Source: Dictyostelium firmibasis (lineage: Eukaryota > Evosea > Eumycetozoa > Dictyosteliales > Dictyosteliaceae). Taken from it: a stretch of 64,000 nucleotides of DNA. The translations under genes and the position numbers were made by a program. Location of the stretch: contig CM069769.1 in assembly GCA_036169595.1 (NCBI GenBank), positions 1,158,501 through 1,222,500 on the forward strand, in the 5' to 3' direction. Each line of letters opens with the position of its first letter. The first letter of the stretch is position 1. Below, piece by piece: positions 34,704 to 64,000 of this stretch. Below the pieces are notes generated by a model, which was not told the origin of the DNA, ran no database searches, and saw only the letters and a program-made list of their open reading frames with translations.

Positions 34704-34943
34704 ATGGTAGAATATTTATTAGTACAATGTTACTCATGTACAATGTTTCAAGTTAGTCAAAAGAAAAAGAAAAAAGATTTTCAATGTAAAATATGTAATG
34801 AAAAACAATCTATTCGAAAAGTTTATGGAGTCAGTTTTATGGCAAAAGATTTGACAACGTTAGTAAAAAAGTATAATATGGAAAAAAAATCAAATCCTCC
34901 AAAACCTATAAAACATAATGAATTCGAAGAAGAAAGTGATGAA

Positions 34944-34974
<31 letters not shown>

Positions 34975-35818
34975 GGAATGATGGGAATGATAATTATGAT
35001 TTTAATGAAAATAACAATGGCGATAATAAAAGTGTCAAGCAACCACAACCTAATAAATGGAGCGCATTCTTGGATGATAAAAATAATGATGAAAATCAAG
35101 AAACTGATCAAATCGATGATTTTTATGGTGTAGGTGAAGATTTAGATGATAGTAGTTTTGTTACCACTTCAGAATTAAGTAAGAAAAGAAGGTATAGTAA
35201 CAATAATAGAAAATCAAATAGTGCAGGTAGTAGTAGTGTTGACAGTAGTAATAATAACATTGGTAAACTAGTTGCAAATAAAAGGTATAAAAATGATGGT
35301 TCCATTAGTAATATTTCAAATTATCAAAGCAAATATTCAAAGCTTTCTCCATATCAAACTAAACCATCAACTTCCTCTCAGTATCAAGCCATCTCACAAC
35401 AAACAACAGCGACAGTACCAACAACAAAAACAGCAACAACAACAACAACAACAAATTCATTTTCATCGACATCACAATATCAAAACAATCCAATTACATC
35501 CCCTTCTTCACAAACTATATCAACTCAGCGTATAACAACGGCGATACCAAAACCATCACTCCCACCCTACAAACCCCTACCAAGTTTACTACAACAAAAG
35601 TCACAACAACAACAACAAAAACAAATAATTTCAAACTCAACACAACCTACAACCATAAGACCAACTTTACCATCCAAACCCTCATTTCAAAGTATTTCAA
35701 CCATTATCAAACAACCTGTAAATAATATAAACAATAACATCACAAACTCAACCGACAATGATAAATATTTCGATCTCATAAGAAAATCCCAAACCAATAT
35801 TGAAGATACAAACAAGTC

Positions 35819-35874
<56 letters not shown>

Positions 35875-36098
35875 GCAATAATAATACAAATACCAACCAA
35901 TTTTATAATAAACCCATCATTAATAATAATACCAATAATGGTTGGGGAAAATTTCAAGCAGACGACGATGATTCTGATGATTCTGCAGATGATTTTTATG
36001 GTATTAGTAATCACCAATCAAAAAATGATCAAATTATTTTAACAGACTCATCATATAATAAATATAGTGTATATAAAGATGATGACAATGATGAATAA
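34704..36098 (+). CDS. MRNIP-like zinc-finger protein (MRN complex-interacting family)
   Basis: Single exon, 464 residues. The N-terminal 60 residues match the MRNIP (UPF0544) domain: VQCYSCTMFQVSQKKKKKDF, then CKICNEKQSIRKVYG. Two CxxC pairs (CYSC, CKIC) can bind zinc. The rest is disordered: an acidic Asp run at residues about 80-95, then Lys/Arg- and Ser-rich parts, Gln/Thr/Pro stretches and an Asn run near 375-390. Two matching short units stand out: KWSAFLDD...DDFYGVG near residues 115-145 and GWGKFQADDD...DDFYGIS near 413-435. In animals MRNIP helps the MRE11-RAD50-NBS1 complex in the DNA damage response; that role here is inferred from the N-terminal domain. Confidence 0.83.
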
Positions 36099-55096: not shown

Positions 55097-57587
<2,491 letters not shown>

Positions 57588-58345
57588 TTCTATTTTTTTA
57601 AGGTTATTTACCCTTTTTTTTTTTTTTTTTTTTTTTTTTAACTTTTTTTTAAAAACTTTTTTAAAAAAAATAGTTTTAACTTTTTCTTTTTTTCCTAAAT
57701 TAAACTATTTCAAATAATAGATTAAAACTATAATGTACTGTTGTAATATTAGTATATTATTTCTTAATATTTATTATTGCTATAATTATTATAATGGTAA
57801 TAATATATTATCACTATTTTTATAAGCTTTGGAATAATAATAATTTTACAGAAAAAAAAAAAAAAAATAAAAAAAAAAATAAAAAAAAAAAAAAAAAATT
57901 TAATTAAAAAAAAATAATTTAAAAAAAAAAAAATTAAAAATTAAAAAAAAAAAAAGAAAAAAATAAAAAAAAATATCAACGATCAAATGAGAATTTTTTT
58001 GTTTTTTTTTTTTTCAAAAAAAAATTTAATAAGATAATAATAAATAGGATCATTTATTTTTCAAAGGTTTTTGTATGATTCAATTAGTTTGACAATATAT
58101 TACTTAAAAAGAATGTACTGTGACATTATTTAATCTGTTTAGAACTTTATTTCTATTATAAAGATATGGAGTATCAATTTAGAGGTTTTATAAAAATGGA
58201 TTATATTTTTTCAAAATCGGACTTGGTGTAAAATAACTACCAACTGGTATTTCCATTTTGAAAAAAAAAAATTCAATATCGAAATCAATAAGTTATTTCT
58301 ATTTCATTACATTCAATTGTTTTTTTTTATTTCGATATTATTTTT
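57588..58345. other. Intergenic region
   Basis: Poly-A/T rich to about 58010. It is then a less repetitive A/T stretch (58040-58260) that is probably the 3' end of the J/chromodomain gene transcript. No coding sequence is evident. Confidence 0.5.
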
Positions 58346-60320
58346 TTAATTCGTTTTTGATCTCTTGATTCTACCATTTGCTGAGGAGGTAGTTGTGGGA
58401 GCTACAATTCTTGAAGATCTTGATGATGGTAAAGATGGGGTTACTCTTTTAGATGATCTTGTATATTTTGGAATCTCATCTACAGAGAATTCTTCAGGTT
58501 CGTCTGGTTCTGATTGGACAACTTCCTCTTCAAATGATACCTCGTGAGTTCTTTTTTTATCTCTACTCGAAGATTTTGGTGGCGGCACAGGTTCATCATA
58601 ATCACTACCACTTTGAGGAGAAACTAATTTTTCATCATCAGATAAGGAGTTGTTATTGTCCATTTCATCGTCAGACTCTTCAGAGGTAGCTTCGACGACT
58701 AGTGGAGGCAACTTAGAGGATCTATGAGCAGAGCTTGTCATTGATCTAGTGCTTGTGGCTGGTGTTGCTTTTTTGGCGGTTGGTGAAATGAATTTTTGTT
58801 TCTCCTCTCTTTCCCTACGGTCTTTGGCTTCTTTTGCTTTTCTCTTGGCCTCTAGTCTTTCTCTTTCAATACGTTCTTGTTCTCTTTCTCTTTCTTCCTT
58901 CTCTTTTTGTATTTCTCTCAATTCTTTTTCCTCTCTTTCTCTTTGTTTTTTTTCCTTTTGTTTCTTTTCTTCTGCGTCTCTCTTTTCTTTATCTTTTTTA
59001 ACTTTTTCAGCTTTTTCCTTTCTGTCTCTTTCCATTCTTTCCTTTCTTTCTCTATCTTTGATGAGTCTTTCCTTTCTTTCTCTCTCTCCTTTTTCCTTTT
59101 TCTCCCTTTCAGCTGCTTCTCTTTCTTCTTTTTCTCTCCCTTCTTTCTCCTTCTTTTTGGTGTTTGATTGTTGTTTTTTTTTTAAATTTCTTTCAAACTC
59201 TTCAATCAAATCTGAACAGAAACAATCCTTAACATCCACTAATTCATTGTAACGACTACTGTAGTTTTTCCATTTTACGACATAATACAAATGTCCATCA
59301 ATTTCTAGCTTGTCGACAATTTTTTCAACCTCATACTCTGGATCCTCATCAGAGGATTCCTCTTTTTGGGCTCTAGATTTAGAAGAGGAAGGGGTTGAAC
59401 GAGATTTAGTCACTGATGGAGAACTTGATTTTCTAGTTACAGGGATAGATGTTCGTCTTGTTGGTCTTTCTTGATCAGATCTTTCAGATCCTTCATCTTT
59501 ATCGTCTTTATATTTTTCTTTTTCATCTTCCTCACGATCTACTTCATCATCTTTATCATCCTTTTCGTTGATGTGTTTGGTTGATTGTCTTGAATATGGC
59601 TTTGATGGAGTGGATCTAGATGTTGGAGGTTTGGGTTTATTGGTTCGTAACGGTTTGGTTGGGCTCAGTGGTGCCTTTGATGATTTATATTTTTTGTCCT
59701 CCACTGGTGATGAAGGAATATCATCGTCTGAGAAATCCATTTTTTCTGTTCTATAAGAAGTTGAAGCTGATGTTGTTGTTGTTGTTGTTGTTGCTGTTGT
59801 TGATGCTGCTGATGACGATGATGCAGATGATTTTTTGGCTAATATTGATGGTTTTGGTGGTGCTGGTGGTGCTGGTGGTGCTGTTGATTTTTTAGTGAAA
59901 AAAATCTCTGGTAAAACCACAGATGGCTCGCTCTCTCCCTTTGATGCTGCTTCTGATGTCGCAGTTGAACTTGATCTTAATGATGGAACCGACGTTTTTT
60001 TAGTTGGTGAAGAAACCTCTGGATTGGATGTTTCTTTATTGATTGTTGGGATATTTGATGATGCTGAGGAAAAAAATGATGACGATATCGTTGTCGTTGT
60101 AGTTGAAGTGGTGGTTGACGATGGTTGTGGTGGTACTGTAGTTTGTTTAAATGGTGGGACAAATTTCTTTGACGGTGTCGTTGGTGCTGGTACTTTTATT
60201 ACTGGTGGTACTTTTATTACTGGTGGTACTTTTATTACTGGTGGTACTTTTATTACTGGTGGTGGTACTTTTATTACTGGTGCTGTCGGTGATTTTGGAG
60301 CTGATGGTACAGTTGTTGCC

Positions 60321-60351
<31 letters not shown>

Positions 60352-60951
60352 TCGTTGTGGTTTCCCTTGATTCGGTAATATTCCTTTCTCTTTTCAATTG
60401 TAAGTCGTATCTTTTTCTTGTAGACTCGTCTTTTAAAGTTTGCTATAAATTTGATTATTGTTTTTTAAAAAATTTAGGAAATTTTTTAAAAAATAAATTG
60501 AAATATAAAAAAGGTAAAAAATAAAAATAGAAATGATGTTGAGATGTATATTTATAAAATTGTTTGGAAAAAATAAATTTTGGTTAATTTTGGAAAATTT
60601 GAAAAAAAAAAAAAAAAAAAAAAAAGCAATGTTCAAAAATATTTTTAGCGGTTGAAAGTTTGTGAAATAAAAAATAATAAAAAAATAAAGTTTAAAAAAT
60701 TTGAAAAAAAAAATTTGAAAAAAAAAAATCGCAATGATATTTTTACTTACATATGCCTCATTCACACTTGGAAATAACCTATGAGATTCAGGATCATTAT
60801 TCTTATCAGGATGAACATACCTTGATAGTGTAAAAAAAGCTTTCTTAATATCCCCGCTTGATGCATTTTCTTTTACATTTAATAGTGCATAATAATTTAT
60901 TTTCTCATCAACTCTTTTTGCAATTGTTTCTAATGTTTCAATTTCTTCCAT
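58346..60951 (-). CDS. J-domain plus chromodomain protein
   Basis: Two exons on the minus strand, 60951-60751 and 60442-58346, in phase 0; 765 residues. Exon 1 plus the first 20 residues of exon 2 make a complete J domain: INYYALLNVKENASSGDIKK, AFFTLSRYVHPDKNN with an intact HPD, and after the splice NEAYQTLKDESTRKRYDL. Then come low-complexity parts: Thr run, repeated PPVIKV units, Ser/Thr/Pro linker, acidic and SR-like stretches. A chromodomain at about residues 434-485 reads YEVEKIVDKLEIDGHLYYVV, KWKNYSSRYNEL, CSDLIEEFE. Its aromatic-cage Tyr, Trp and Tyr are kept, but the usual TWEP is missing. A long Lys/Glu/Arg coiled-coil segment (486-590) and a Ser/acidic tail with RSSK/KRSK basic motifs follow. 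A nuclear chromatin-bound Hsp70 co-chaperone is the natural inference. Confidence 0.88.
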
Positions 60952-61221
60952 ATTATATCTATTTTTTTTCTTTTTATTCCTCTTTTTTATAAATGTTTTT
61001 GGTTATTACTATTTCCGTTTTATTATAACAATTTATTCTTTATTTTTTATTTATTTATTTTTCAATATATTTTCAAAAAAAAAAAAAAAAAAAAAAAAAA
61101 AGAAATAGTAAACAAATAAAATTGAAGAGGAAATAAAAGAAAGGTTTTATTCTATGTATTTTGAATTAATCCAAAATTTTTTTAAAATGTTTATGTTTAT
61201 TTCTGTTTTTTCTTTTTTCTT

Positions 61222-61267
<46 letters not shown>

Positions 61268-61300
61268 AATTTTAACTTAATTATTAGTTTTGTTGTAAAT

Positions 61301-61336
<36 letters not shown>

Positions 61337-61920
61337 ATTATTTCTTTATTTTATTGCGTAGAAATCATTATCTCTTTATGTGTTTTAATGAAAAAAAGAA
61401 TTTGAAAAAAAAAAAAAATTATAAAAAAATTAAAAATGAAAATTTTAAAAAAATCAAAAAAATTTTATAAAAAAAGAAAGCGGGAAAAAAAAATAGTTCA
61501 ATGGAGTAAATCATTTCCAATTATTATTTTTAATGATACACCAATTTTACATTATTTTTTTTTTATTTTTTTTATTCCAAGACTTGAACTCCACAAAATA
61601 ACAAACTTCAACAAATTATGTTTTTTGATGCTTTTATAGGCATCTTCATATCTCTAGTGATCACTTCCGATTGTTCAATGTGAAATTTTGTTAATGATTT
61701 TTCAAAATGAATAAAAGAGACTATCATCGTCTATCTTTTTTTTTTCTTTTATAATTTTTTCTTTTTTTTGATAATTTATATGTTTTCAAAAAACATCCTT
61801 TTCGGTGGAAATGCATGTTTTTTTTTTAAATTTTTTTTTTTTTGCCACATGAAAACATGCATTCCCACCGAAAAGGATGTTTTTTGAAAAGTTGGCTATG
61901 GATATATATTAAAAAAATGT
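60952..61920. other. Intergenic region with a strong hairpin
   Basis: A/T runs to about 61560, then a patch of mixed composition (61575-61720) with no recognised feature. A 39-bp-arm inverted repeat at 61783-61890 abuts the pseudogene that follows. Confidence 0.55.
61783..61890. repeat. Near-perfect inverted repeat (hairpin)
   Basis: The arms 61783-61821 and 61852-61890 are reverse complements over 39 bases with one mismatch; the arm core reads AACATCCTTTTCGGTGG. A T-rich loop of about 30 bases separates them. The arms contain more G/C than anything nearby. Confidence 0.92.
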
Positions 61921-62445
61921 TTATTAAATGCAAAGTTGTTTTACTTTAAACTTTTACAATTGGAAGAAGAAAATCAAAATCAATTAAACATTTCATTCAT
62001 TTGCCAACCAATTAAAAAAGAGAAATATCAATTTTTAAAATCTAAACTATTAAAACCAAATGGAAATTAAATTGATATTAGTGAAATTGAAACAAACTAT
62101 TCTATTCTTTCAGAACTTTCAACAATTTCTTCTGATTTAACAGTTTTTTGCTTTTGTTTTAATTTTAAAAAAAATGGTTTATTAAACCAAGATTATGAAC
62201 TTTACAAAGCATTAAACAATTCATTAATCACCCAATTTAATCATTTATCAGAACCAAATGAAAAAGAACTAATATTAACCAATACAATATTCTTTGAAGG
62301 TCATGGTCCAAAATTTATTTCAAATATTATTACATCAATTGGGTTGAAAATCGACCCAAATCACCAAAAAGATTTAAGTTTTCCATTTTTAAGAGCTACA
62401 ATAATGAATCCATTTTTAAATGATACAAAAAATGGTTCATACTAA
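61921..62445 (+). pseudogene. Broken coding fragment, possibly the C-terminal part of a PLP-dependent decarboxylase
   Basis: A 175-codon frame with normal amoebal coding composition has no start codon and one internal TAA at 62068-62070. It ends in TAA at 62443. Readable stretches are LLQLEEENQNQLNISFICQP, IDISEIETNYSILSELS, NYELYKAL-like DYELYKALNNSLITQFNHL and FFEGHGPKFISNIITSIGLK, then PFLRATIMNPFLND. The last motif resembles the LR[TA]xxMNP end of group II pyridoxal-dependent decarboxylases, but I hold that assignment loosely. No frameshift is needed, so decay is limited to truncation and one stop. Confidence 0.55.
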
Positions 62446-62847
<402 letters not shown>

Positions 62848-64000
62848 TTAAATTGCAGCTAAATTAGCAAAATTTTGTAATTGATTTTCTTTTTCAATTC
62901 TTGCGGCGTCGACAGCTTTAAAGAATTCAGGACCTGAGCAAGCTTTATTCAAGAAAGGATGATGTAATAAAGAGGAGGAGGAAGCACGTTTTTCAGTGTC
63001 TTTTTCGAGACAGAGAGCGAGGAAATCATTAAATTCCTTTGACCATTTGTGAGCGTCTCTAATTGGAGGTAAACCTTGGGTAGTTAAAAGGAACAAAGCT
63101 CTGAGTGGAGGGAATTCGAGGTAGGGTGGTTCACCTTCAGCCATTTCTCTAGTCATGATACCAAGTGACCAAACATCAACTTTAAAGTCATAGTTGTTAC
63201 CTCTGATCAACTCTGGAGCCATCCAATAGGGAGTACCAACCACTGAATTTCTCTCTTGGCGAATTTGGGTCAATTGAGCGGCATAACCGAAATCGGCCAA
63301 TTTAATCTCACCATTGGCACCAATGAGGATATTGTCACTCTTGATATCACGATGAATACGATTGAATTTGTGAATATACTCTAGACCTCTGAGAACCTCT
63401 TGACAGACGAAAGCGATTTGACCTTCGTTCAATTGGATGTCACGATATTGATCGAGTACTTCAGTCAAGCAACCACCACTCATAAATTCCATTGCTACCC
63501 AAAGTTCATCGGCAACGATATAACTATCGATGTATTGTACGATGTTGTCATGGTTTGAATTCTTCATCATACCAATTTCATTGATTACAGTCTTTAAGTT
63601 TTGTGCCTTTAATTTCATTTTCTTAATGGCAATAGTTTGATTGGTACGAGAGTTAATAGCCTCGAATACTTCACCAGCACCACCTTCACCAATTTTATTG
63701 ATATTATAATAGATCTTCTTTGGATCGTCCAAACTAATGAGATCATTTAATGTTACTGGTGGTTCATCTGTAAGTGGTATAGATGGTGCATGCATTGCTG
63801 GTGCTGATGCTAATCCTTGATATTGAGCATGGAATTTAACTACATCCAAAACTTCTTCGGGATGTTGCATAACCTCTGGCTCTTGGAAATTGGATTTAAT
63901 CAAAACCTCCCATTCCTTTGGTAAACCTTCAAAGCCTGTATCAGCATTGAAATTTACATGAACATCATGTTTCACATTAAATGGTGTACCTACACGTGGT
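62848..64000 (-). CDS. pakA: p21-activated protein kinase (PAK), C-terminal part
   Basis: The frame is open from base 64000 to the stop at 62848, so the N-terminus lies outside. The visible 383 residues begin with a CRIB/PBD motif (PRVGTPFNVKHDVHVNF, then GFEGLPKEW) that binds GTP-loaded Rac/Cdc42. After a linker comes a full STE20-group kinase domain: glycine loop GEGGAGEVF, Lys in IAIKKMK, hinge AMEFMSGGCL, HRDIKSDN, DFGYAAQL and the PAK activation loop NSVVGTPYWMAPE. The domain closes with KRASSSSLLHHPFL and a 30-residue tail. Dictyostelium PAKs control myosin II assembly, chemotaxis and cytokinesis. I choose pakA over pakB-D from remembered linkage to cdsA and cas1, so the symbol is less sure than the family. 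Confidence 0.85.
   Translation of the reverse strand, partial: PRVGTPFNVKHDVHVNFNADTGFEGLPKEWEVLIKSNFQEPEVMQHPEEVLDVVKFHAQYQGLASAPAMHAPSIPLTDEPPVTLNDLISLDDPKKIYYNINKIGEGGAGEVFEAINSRTNQTIAIKKMKLKAQNLKTVINEIGMMKNSNHDNIVQYIDSYIVADELWVAMEFMSGGCLTEVLDQYRDIQLNEGQIAFVCQEVLRGLEYIHKFNRIHRDIKSDNILIGANGEIKLADFGYAAQLTQIRQERNSVVGTPYWMAPELIRGNNYDFKVDVWSLGIMTREMAEGEPPYLEFPPLRALFLLTTQGLPPIRDAHKWSKEFNDFLALCLEKDTEKRASSSSLLHHPFLNKACSGPEFFKAVDAARIEKENQLQNFANLAAI

Follow-up and report, generated by a model that had tools for sequence, protein, structure and literature searches.

Does a single gene of Dictyostelium firmibasis encode both a J domain and a chromodomain and, if it does, might the product bring Hsp70 to chromatin? 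The question is raised by a two-exon gene on the minus strand of a 64,000-nucleotide stretch of this genome (contig CM069769.1; we refer to the whole stretch as the window and give positions within it), for which an earlier note had proposed an HPD-bearing J domain split by a phase-0 intron, a chromodomain with cage residues and a long charged coiled coil, all in a co-chaperone targeting Hsp70 to chromatin. The joined product of the gene is 765 amino acids (aa) long and carries both domains. Its parts are laid out as follows:

60951-60751, minus strand: exon 1, with the start codon, residues 1-67 and the first part of the J domain including HPD; 54.1 bits against DnaJ on its own
60805-60813, minus strand: codons of HPD (residues 47-49), inside exon 1
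60750-60443, minus strand: intron of 308 nucleotides (nt), GTAAGT...ATAG, phase 0, 14% G+C; best of 181 candidate joins
60442-58346, minus strand: exon 2, residues 68-765 and the stop; a single open frame of 698 codons
60404-60442, minus strand: QTLKDESTRKRYD (residues 68-80), the closing part of the J domain, within exon 2; brings some 20 bits more and extends the DnaJ match to all 63 profile positions

The case for one gene rests on the splice and on the length of the second open frame. When 181 GT-AG joins were scored with a J-domain profile built from 12 database proteins, the join given above reached 70.9 bits, the runner-up 53.3 and the unspliced sequence 44.9. The Pfam DnaJ profile tells the same story: exon 1 alone covers profile positions 1-50, the first 98 residues after splicing cover all 63 with 74.5 bits, and the whole protein scores 70.6 bits against a cut-off of 27.8, so that the J domain with its HPD, split by a phase-0 intron, is borne out. 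In-frame stops lie upstream of the ATG. Two different genes wrongly joined, a possibility that the earlier note had itself raised, can be ruled out on the sequence because the last part of the J domain and the chromodomain share the single open frame of exon 2; the join, as noted, is also the best of those scored. Beyond HPD, the fold signature of the J domain and its C-terminal RKRYD are intact. Neither the whole protein nor any of four pieces spanning residues 68-436 and 477-765 matched, at E<=1, a Pfam family of the C-terminal substrate domains typical of class A and B DnaJ proteins; by its domain content the protein is therefore a class C J protein.

The chromodomain lies further along exon 2, and three aromatic residues mark its candidate cage:

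59189-59335, minus strand: chromodomain, residues 437-485, from Pfam, genome search, alignments, predicted fold and a shuffle test
59333-59335, minus strand: cage aromatic Y437, from alignment
59270-59272, minus strand: cage aromatic W458, from alignment
59261-59263, minus strand: cage aromatic Y461, from alignment

Pfam Chromo is silent when the whole protein or the whole of exon 2 is scanned, probably because their composition is strongly biased. Scanned as an isolated piece, the segment does pass, with 33.9 bits (78 aa) or 35.4 bits (52 aa) against a cut-off of 25.1, and a six-frame profile search of the genome gives it 33.8 bits. To a profile of five other chromodomains from the same genome, aligned together with the query, whose row was then removed, the piece matches with 59.6 bits and the whole protein with 52.8, compared with 10.5 bits for the best of 1000 shuffled pieces and 2.8 for the best of 200 locally shuffled exon-2 products. 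A chance chromodomain in a low-complexity protein can thus be ruled out. Y437, W458 and Y461 align, in sequence, with the Y, W and F of CBX5. Sequences of solved structures matching at E<=0.001 (n=14) are CBX5, CBX1, CBX3, HP1 and Clr4 plus one 'putative uncharacterized protein'. As far as sequence can tell, this is an HP1-class chromodomain with an aromatic cage; the domain and aromatics that the earlier note had placed at 434-485 stand, with the Pfam borders at 437-485 and with one segment changed (see below). Chromo_shadow stays below its cut-off of 22.4 bits on every piece and on the whole protein (12.9 bits), and what it matches best is the chromodomain.

Structure prediction points the same way. 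Single-sequence models of 77 residues reached a mean predicted local distance difference test score (pLDDT) of 73.5 at best (range over five models 54.6-73.5), and one of 213 residues a mean of 84.4, with about 68-88 in the beta part. Among the ten best structural matches, nuclear magnetic resonance (NMR) models apart, are CBX1, CBX3, CBX5 and HP1 structures at a root-mean-square deviation of 1.0-1.4 and a TMt of 0.83-0.90; the NMR models 2rvl and 1ap0 are also matched, at a lower TMt of 0.53-0.64. Most of the matched HP1/CBX structures hold methylated histone H3 peptides. VIA-align, which covers 50 Foldseek-ranked chains so that other families are possible beyond those, gives 8.1-9.1 for Rhino, 8.9 for SUV39H1 and 8.0-8.1 for MPP8. 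The predicted fold, then, resembles that of HP1 chromodomains.

What lies between and behind the two domains is mostly low-complexity or highly charged sequence:

59363-60394, minus strand: linker, residues 84-427; low complexity, 49% P/S/T, no Pfam match above cut-off
60191-60280, minus strand: PVIKV in five tandem copies (residues 122-151), a loose likeness to PxVxL; a tandem repeat, not independent
59912-59926, minus strand: PSVVL, residues 240-244, one exact PxVxL string; weak
58790-59215, minus strand: modelled single helix, residues 477-618, the C-terminal helix of the chromodomain running into an E/R/K-rich charged helix; single-sequence model
58349-58789, minus strand: tail, residues 619-765; low complexity, basic clusters RDKKR and RIKRSK, no Pfam match

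PxVxL is the motif bound by chromoshadow domains. Its exact form occurs once in the linker, and 4% of 5000 linker shuffles hold at least one; the loose form occurs six times against 0.56 expected from shuffles, yet a single tandem repeat supplies five of these. The four pieces scanned gave no Pfam match above cut-off; below it came PEHE (14.3 bits), Dicty_REP (12.1) and MUCL1 (11). The basic clusters of the tail could serve nuclear import.

By its sequence, the charged tract is not the coiled coil it had been taken for. Within residues 489-618, 78% of which are charged and 12% hydrophobic, even the best heptad register places hydrophobic residues at only 3 of 37 core positions, and the power at a hydrophobic period of 3.5 residues is reached by 1538 of 2000 shuffles (period 3.6: 221). 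Opposite charges are instead paired at i/i+4 (65 pairs versus about 38 expected, a count that 0 of 2000 shuffles reach), with like charges depleted at the same spacing (12 versus 39). The fit to a perfect ER/K pattern is incomplete: opposite pairs at i/i+3 are below chance (27 versus about 38) and those at i/i+1 are raised (62 versus about 39), so that the pattern is of the i/i+4 type only. The single-sequence model draws residues 477-618 as one helix, about 21 nm long at 0.15 nm per residue and mostly at a pLDDT of 90 or above; note that such models may favour helices for a sequence this charged, and that we take the model as support, not proof. Taken together, charge spacing and model make the tract look like a single alpha helix. 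ER/K single alpha helices, segments of which occur in myosin VI and X, share its high charge, its i/i+4 spacing and its want of a heptad core; the helix here differs in being continuous, in the model, with that of the chromodomain.

How common is such a protein? Across the genome, which holds 45 chromodomain and 33 J-domain matches, this gene is the only place where one of each falls within 74 kb; no second gene with both was seen, a search in which domains cut by introns could be missed. Database searches returned 15 candidates for the chromodomain region, none at E<=0.01, and 87 for the J region, 12 of them at E<=0.001, of which three come from named diatoms and one is a beetle DNAJC10, no organism being named for the others; no chromodomain is among the Pfam domains listed for the J-region matches. 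Neither search returned a protein with both domains, a named dictyostelid relative or the D. firmibasis protein itself. A control search with a neighbouring Tweety-like open reading frame (ORF) gave at least 8 matches at E<=1e-5 (7992 candidates scored), 7 of them named dictyostelids, and one a D. firmibasis protein 100% identical to that ORF; it established that the database holds proteins of D. firmibasis, D. citrinum, D. discoideum, D. purpureum, Polysphondylium violaceum and Heterostelium album. With the query protein itself among the misses, no absence of orthologs can be read from these searches, nor can the layout be called private to dictyostelids, as the earlier note had thought possible: the protein is either missing from the database or modelled there outside 421-1338 aa. 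The pairing is not named in the titles and abstract beginnings of the open-access literature searched, and the mentions of DnaJ and chromodomain in part of one paper concern different proteins (PMC9998398). With these bounds, a J domain and an HP1-class chromodomain in one protein look unusual.

Comparison with known systems shows where the novelty would lie. With HP1 and its relatives CBX1, CBX3 and CBX5 the protein shares the chromodomain class, the cage aromatics and a serine-acidic run immediately ahead of the domain (SSDEDPEY, compared with SSEDEEEY in CBX5); unlike them it has no chromoshadow domain over the Pfam cut-off, has a J domain and a charged helix added, and has a changed TWEP segment. 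The one Chromo_shadow match in the genome (C5:380751-380909) belongs to another gene, HP1-like, that has both a chromo and a chromoshadow domain. From DNAJC2/zuotin (ZRF1) it differs in that its chromatin module is a chromodomain rather than SANT: SANT/Myb gave no match at E<=1 in the whole protein or the same four pieces. A genome search for zuotin with the RAC_head profile gave no match, but its control was likewise silent, so that this miss carries no weight. In Arabidopsis, SUVH1 and SUVH3 read DNA methylation. There, as part of a published account describes, these methyl readers bring the J-domain proteins DNAJ1 and DNAJ2 to chromatin (PMC11139477), reader and J protein being separate molecules. 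Excerpts of a study of S. pombe describe the Hsp40 Mas5 as required for heterochromatin formed by RNA interference (RNAi) and for the level of Tas3, and Chp1, which is in the RITS complex with Tas3, as carrying a chromodomain (PMC5985592). An Hsp40 and a chromodomain reader of histone H3 lysine 9 methylation (H3K9me) thus serve one silencing pathway, again as separate proteins, and Mas5 is a nucleocytoplasmic type-I Hsp40 (same excerpts). Since separate J proteins and readers cooperate in both organisms, a fused form is plausible.

What, then, might the protein do? Recruitment is the simplest reading of two such domains in one frame, and the one we tentatively prefer, at a little short of an even chance, is that a class C J protein would be held on methylated chromatin by its HP1-class chromodomain and would present its J domain to Hsp70 there. 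If expressed and nuclear, the protein would be anchored by methyl-lysine binding on H3K9-methylated regions (centromeric sequences carry this mark in D. discoideum, according to part of PMC5633606); a J domain tethered by some 340 residues of linker would be free to reach around its anchor, the charged helix acting as spacer or strut; and Hsp70, stimulated by the J domain, might act on chromatin-bound complexes such as those of silencing or remodelling. Imagine, further, a histone-mark-directed Hsp70 loader in one polypeptide, with the chromodomain as reader, the helix as a rigid strut of about 21 nm across neighbouring nucleosomes, the J domain on a long flexible arm and HP1 possibly gathered by the PxVxL-like repeats: this fuller version we consider doubtful.

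Two departures from the usual sequence may weigh against recruitment, and each lends itself to an explanation of its own. Helix II of the J domain (IKKAFFTLSRYVHPD) has FFT at the site where a basic pair is usual, F and T taking the place of residues that we take to correspond to numbers 26-27 of E. coli DnaJ; work on that protein has the helix-II basic patch of J domains contacting Hsp70. Of the 33 J-domain matches in the genome, 20 were fetched, 16 of which were readable with HPD (the filter used could not read the other 4): the first place is basic in 14 of 16, the second in 13 of 16, and both are lost in none, while each of the 12 database relatives holds at least one. The J domain may thus be weak or no longer drive Hsp70, remaining as a contact surface in what would mainly be a chromatin scaffold. 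We think this unlikely, though worth taking seriously, given that HPD, the fold signature and RKRYD are intact, that helix II keeps two other basic residues (K36 and K37) and that the DnaJ scores of 70.6-74.5 bits are high above cut-off. The second departure is in the chromodomain, where the TWEP segment and peptide clasp, which have contact roles in peptide binding, are altered (NELVDVKDCF, against NTWEPEKNLD in CBX5); the W of TWEP is kept in 5 of 5 other chromodomains of this genome that were aligned. Together with the very charged flank beside the domain and the nucleic-acid binding reported for the Chp1 chromodomain (in a title in the reference list of PMC5985592), these changes could mean that the chromodomain binds nucleic acid or another protein rather than methylated H3, in which case an RNA-protein complex or another methylated protein would be the place to which Hsp70 is led. 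All three cage aromatics are kept, however, and the closest relatives in sequence and fold are mostly H3K9me readers; we rate this explanation slightly below that of a J domain no longer driving Hsp70.

Because of these two changes, neither methyl binding nor the Hsp70 step can be taken for granted, and the earlier proposal of a co-chaperone bringing Hsp70 to chromatin survives in its domain pair, with the helix-II pair and TWEP as its soft spots. Finally, the gene could be young or silent, without a settled function in D. firmibasis. The database searches missed the protein, although at least one other D. firmibasis protein encoded on this contig is present there, and the published annotation, as part of its description states, drew on transcripts of three stages and on homology to D. 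discoideum (PMC11193728). Yet a gene model outside 421-1338 aa explains the miss equally well, 765 codons run without a stop with both domains intact, and the codon index (0.649) falls within the range of the four neighbours that define its scale (0.644-0.790), a weak point given that A+T-biased random choice yields 0.631. This we consider improbable. Our preference stays with chromatin-held presentation of the J domain to Hsp70.

Where the chromodomain came from is a separate matter. In a six-row alignment its identity is 35% to a repeated transposon-type ORF, 34% to the HP1-like gene, 32% to a cellular gene at C5:2863135, and 28 and 26% to two Ty3/gypsy-type ORFs (C1 to C7 label genome sequences); values of 26-35% support no one donor, mobile element or other. 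The ORF of the C5 gene (1191 aa) ends in a strong chromodomain at C5:2863135-2863281 (61 bits), two further pieces scanned having no other Pfam match, and, among the genome chromodomains compared, it is the only one to share the DCFC run of the J-chromodomain protein. At C5:4218453-4219942, a 251-aa chromodomain ORF directly precedes one of 224 aa whose product has a DDE_Tnp_4 transposase domain (40.6 bits). Judged on score and frame length, this type accounts for 35 of the 45 chromodomain matches in the genome (one copy opened), and its members are concentrated towards one end in C2-C6, on C7 and, in C1, at 4.5-4.8 Mb. The neighbours of the C5 copy resemble DIRS-1 ORFs, one of which was scanned and had no Pfam match. 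From its ORFs, this type would seem to be a DNA transposon that carries a chromodomain and sits in clusters rich in DIRS.

Elsewhere in the window, an inverted repeat at 61783-61890 has two 39-nt arms, 97% complementary and 30 nt apart, and similar sequence at three other genome places; an Rfam scan of 57500-64000 gave no matches, and the repeat may be what is left of a hairpin-type mobile element, or a hairpin that yields small RNA. A 124-codon open stretch at 62071-62445, 33-36% identical to parts of three longer genome ORFs (626-723 aa), looks, from these likenesses, like a gene fragment. An ORF at 34704-36098 encodes an MRN-interacting protein (MRNIP) domain (99.6 bits), after which the sequence is of low complexity.

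It is J proteins that direct Hsp70 to its sites of action. Such proteins are already known on silent or methylated chromatin, and in both cases compared here the reader is one molecule and the J protein another. Should the gene be silent or its domains degenerate, it would be a curiosity of domain shuffling. Were it a histone-mark-directed Hsp70 loader, protein remodelling by Hsp70 would become part of heterochromatin itself. In either form of recruitment, a covalent pair would allow the role of Hsp70 at methylated chromatin to be tested with two point changes, one in HPD and one in the cage, within one gene of a tractable amoeba group.
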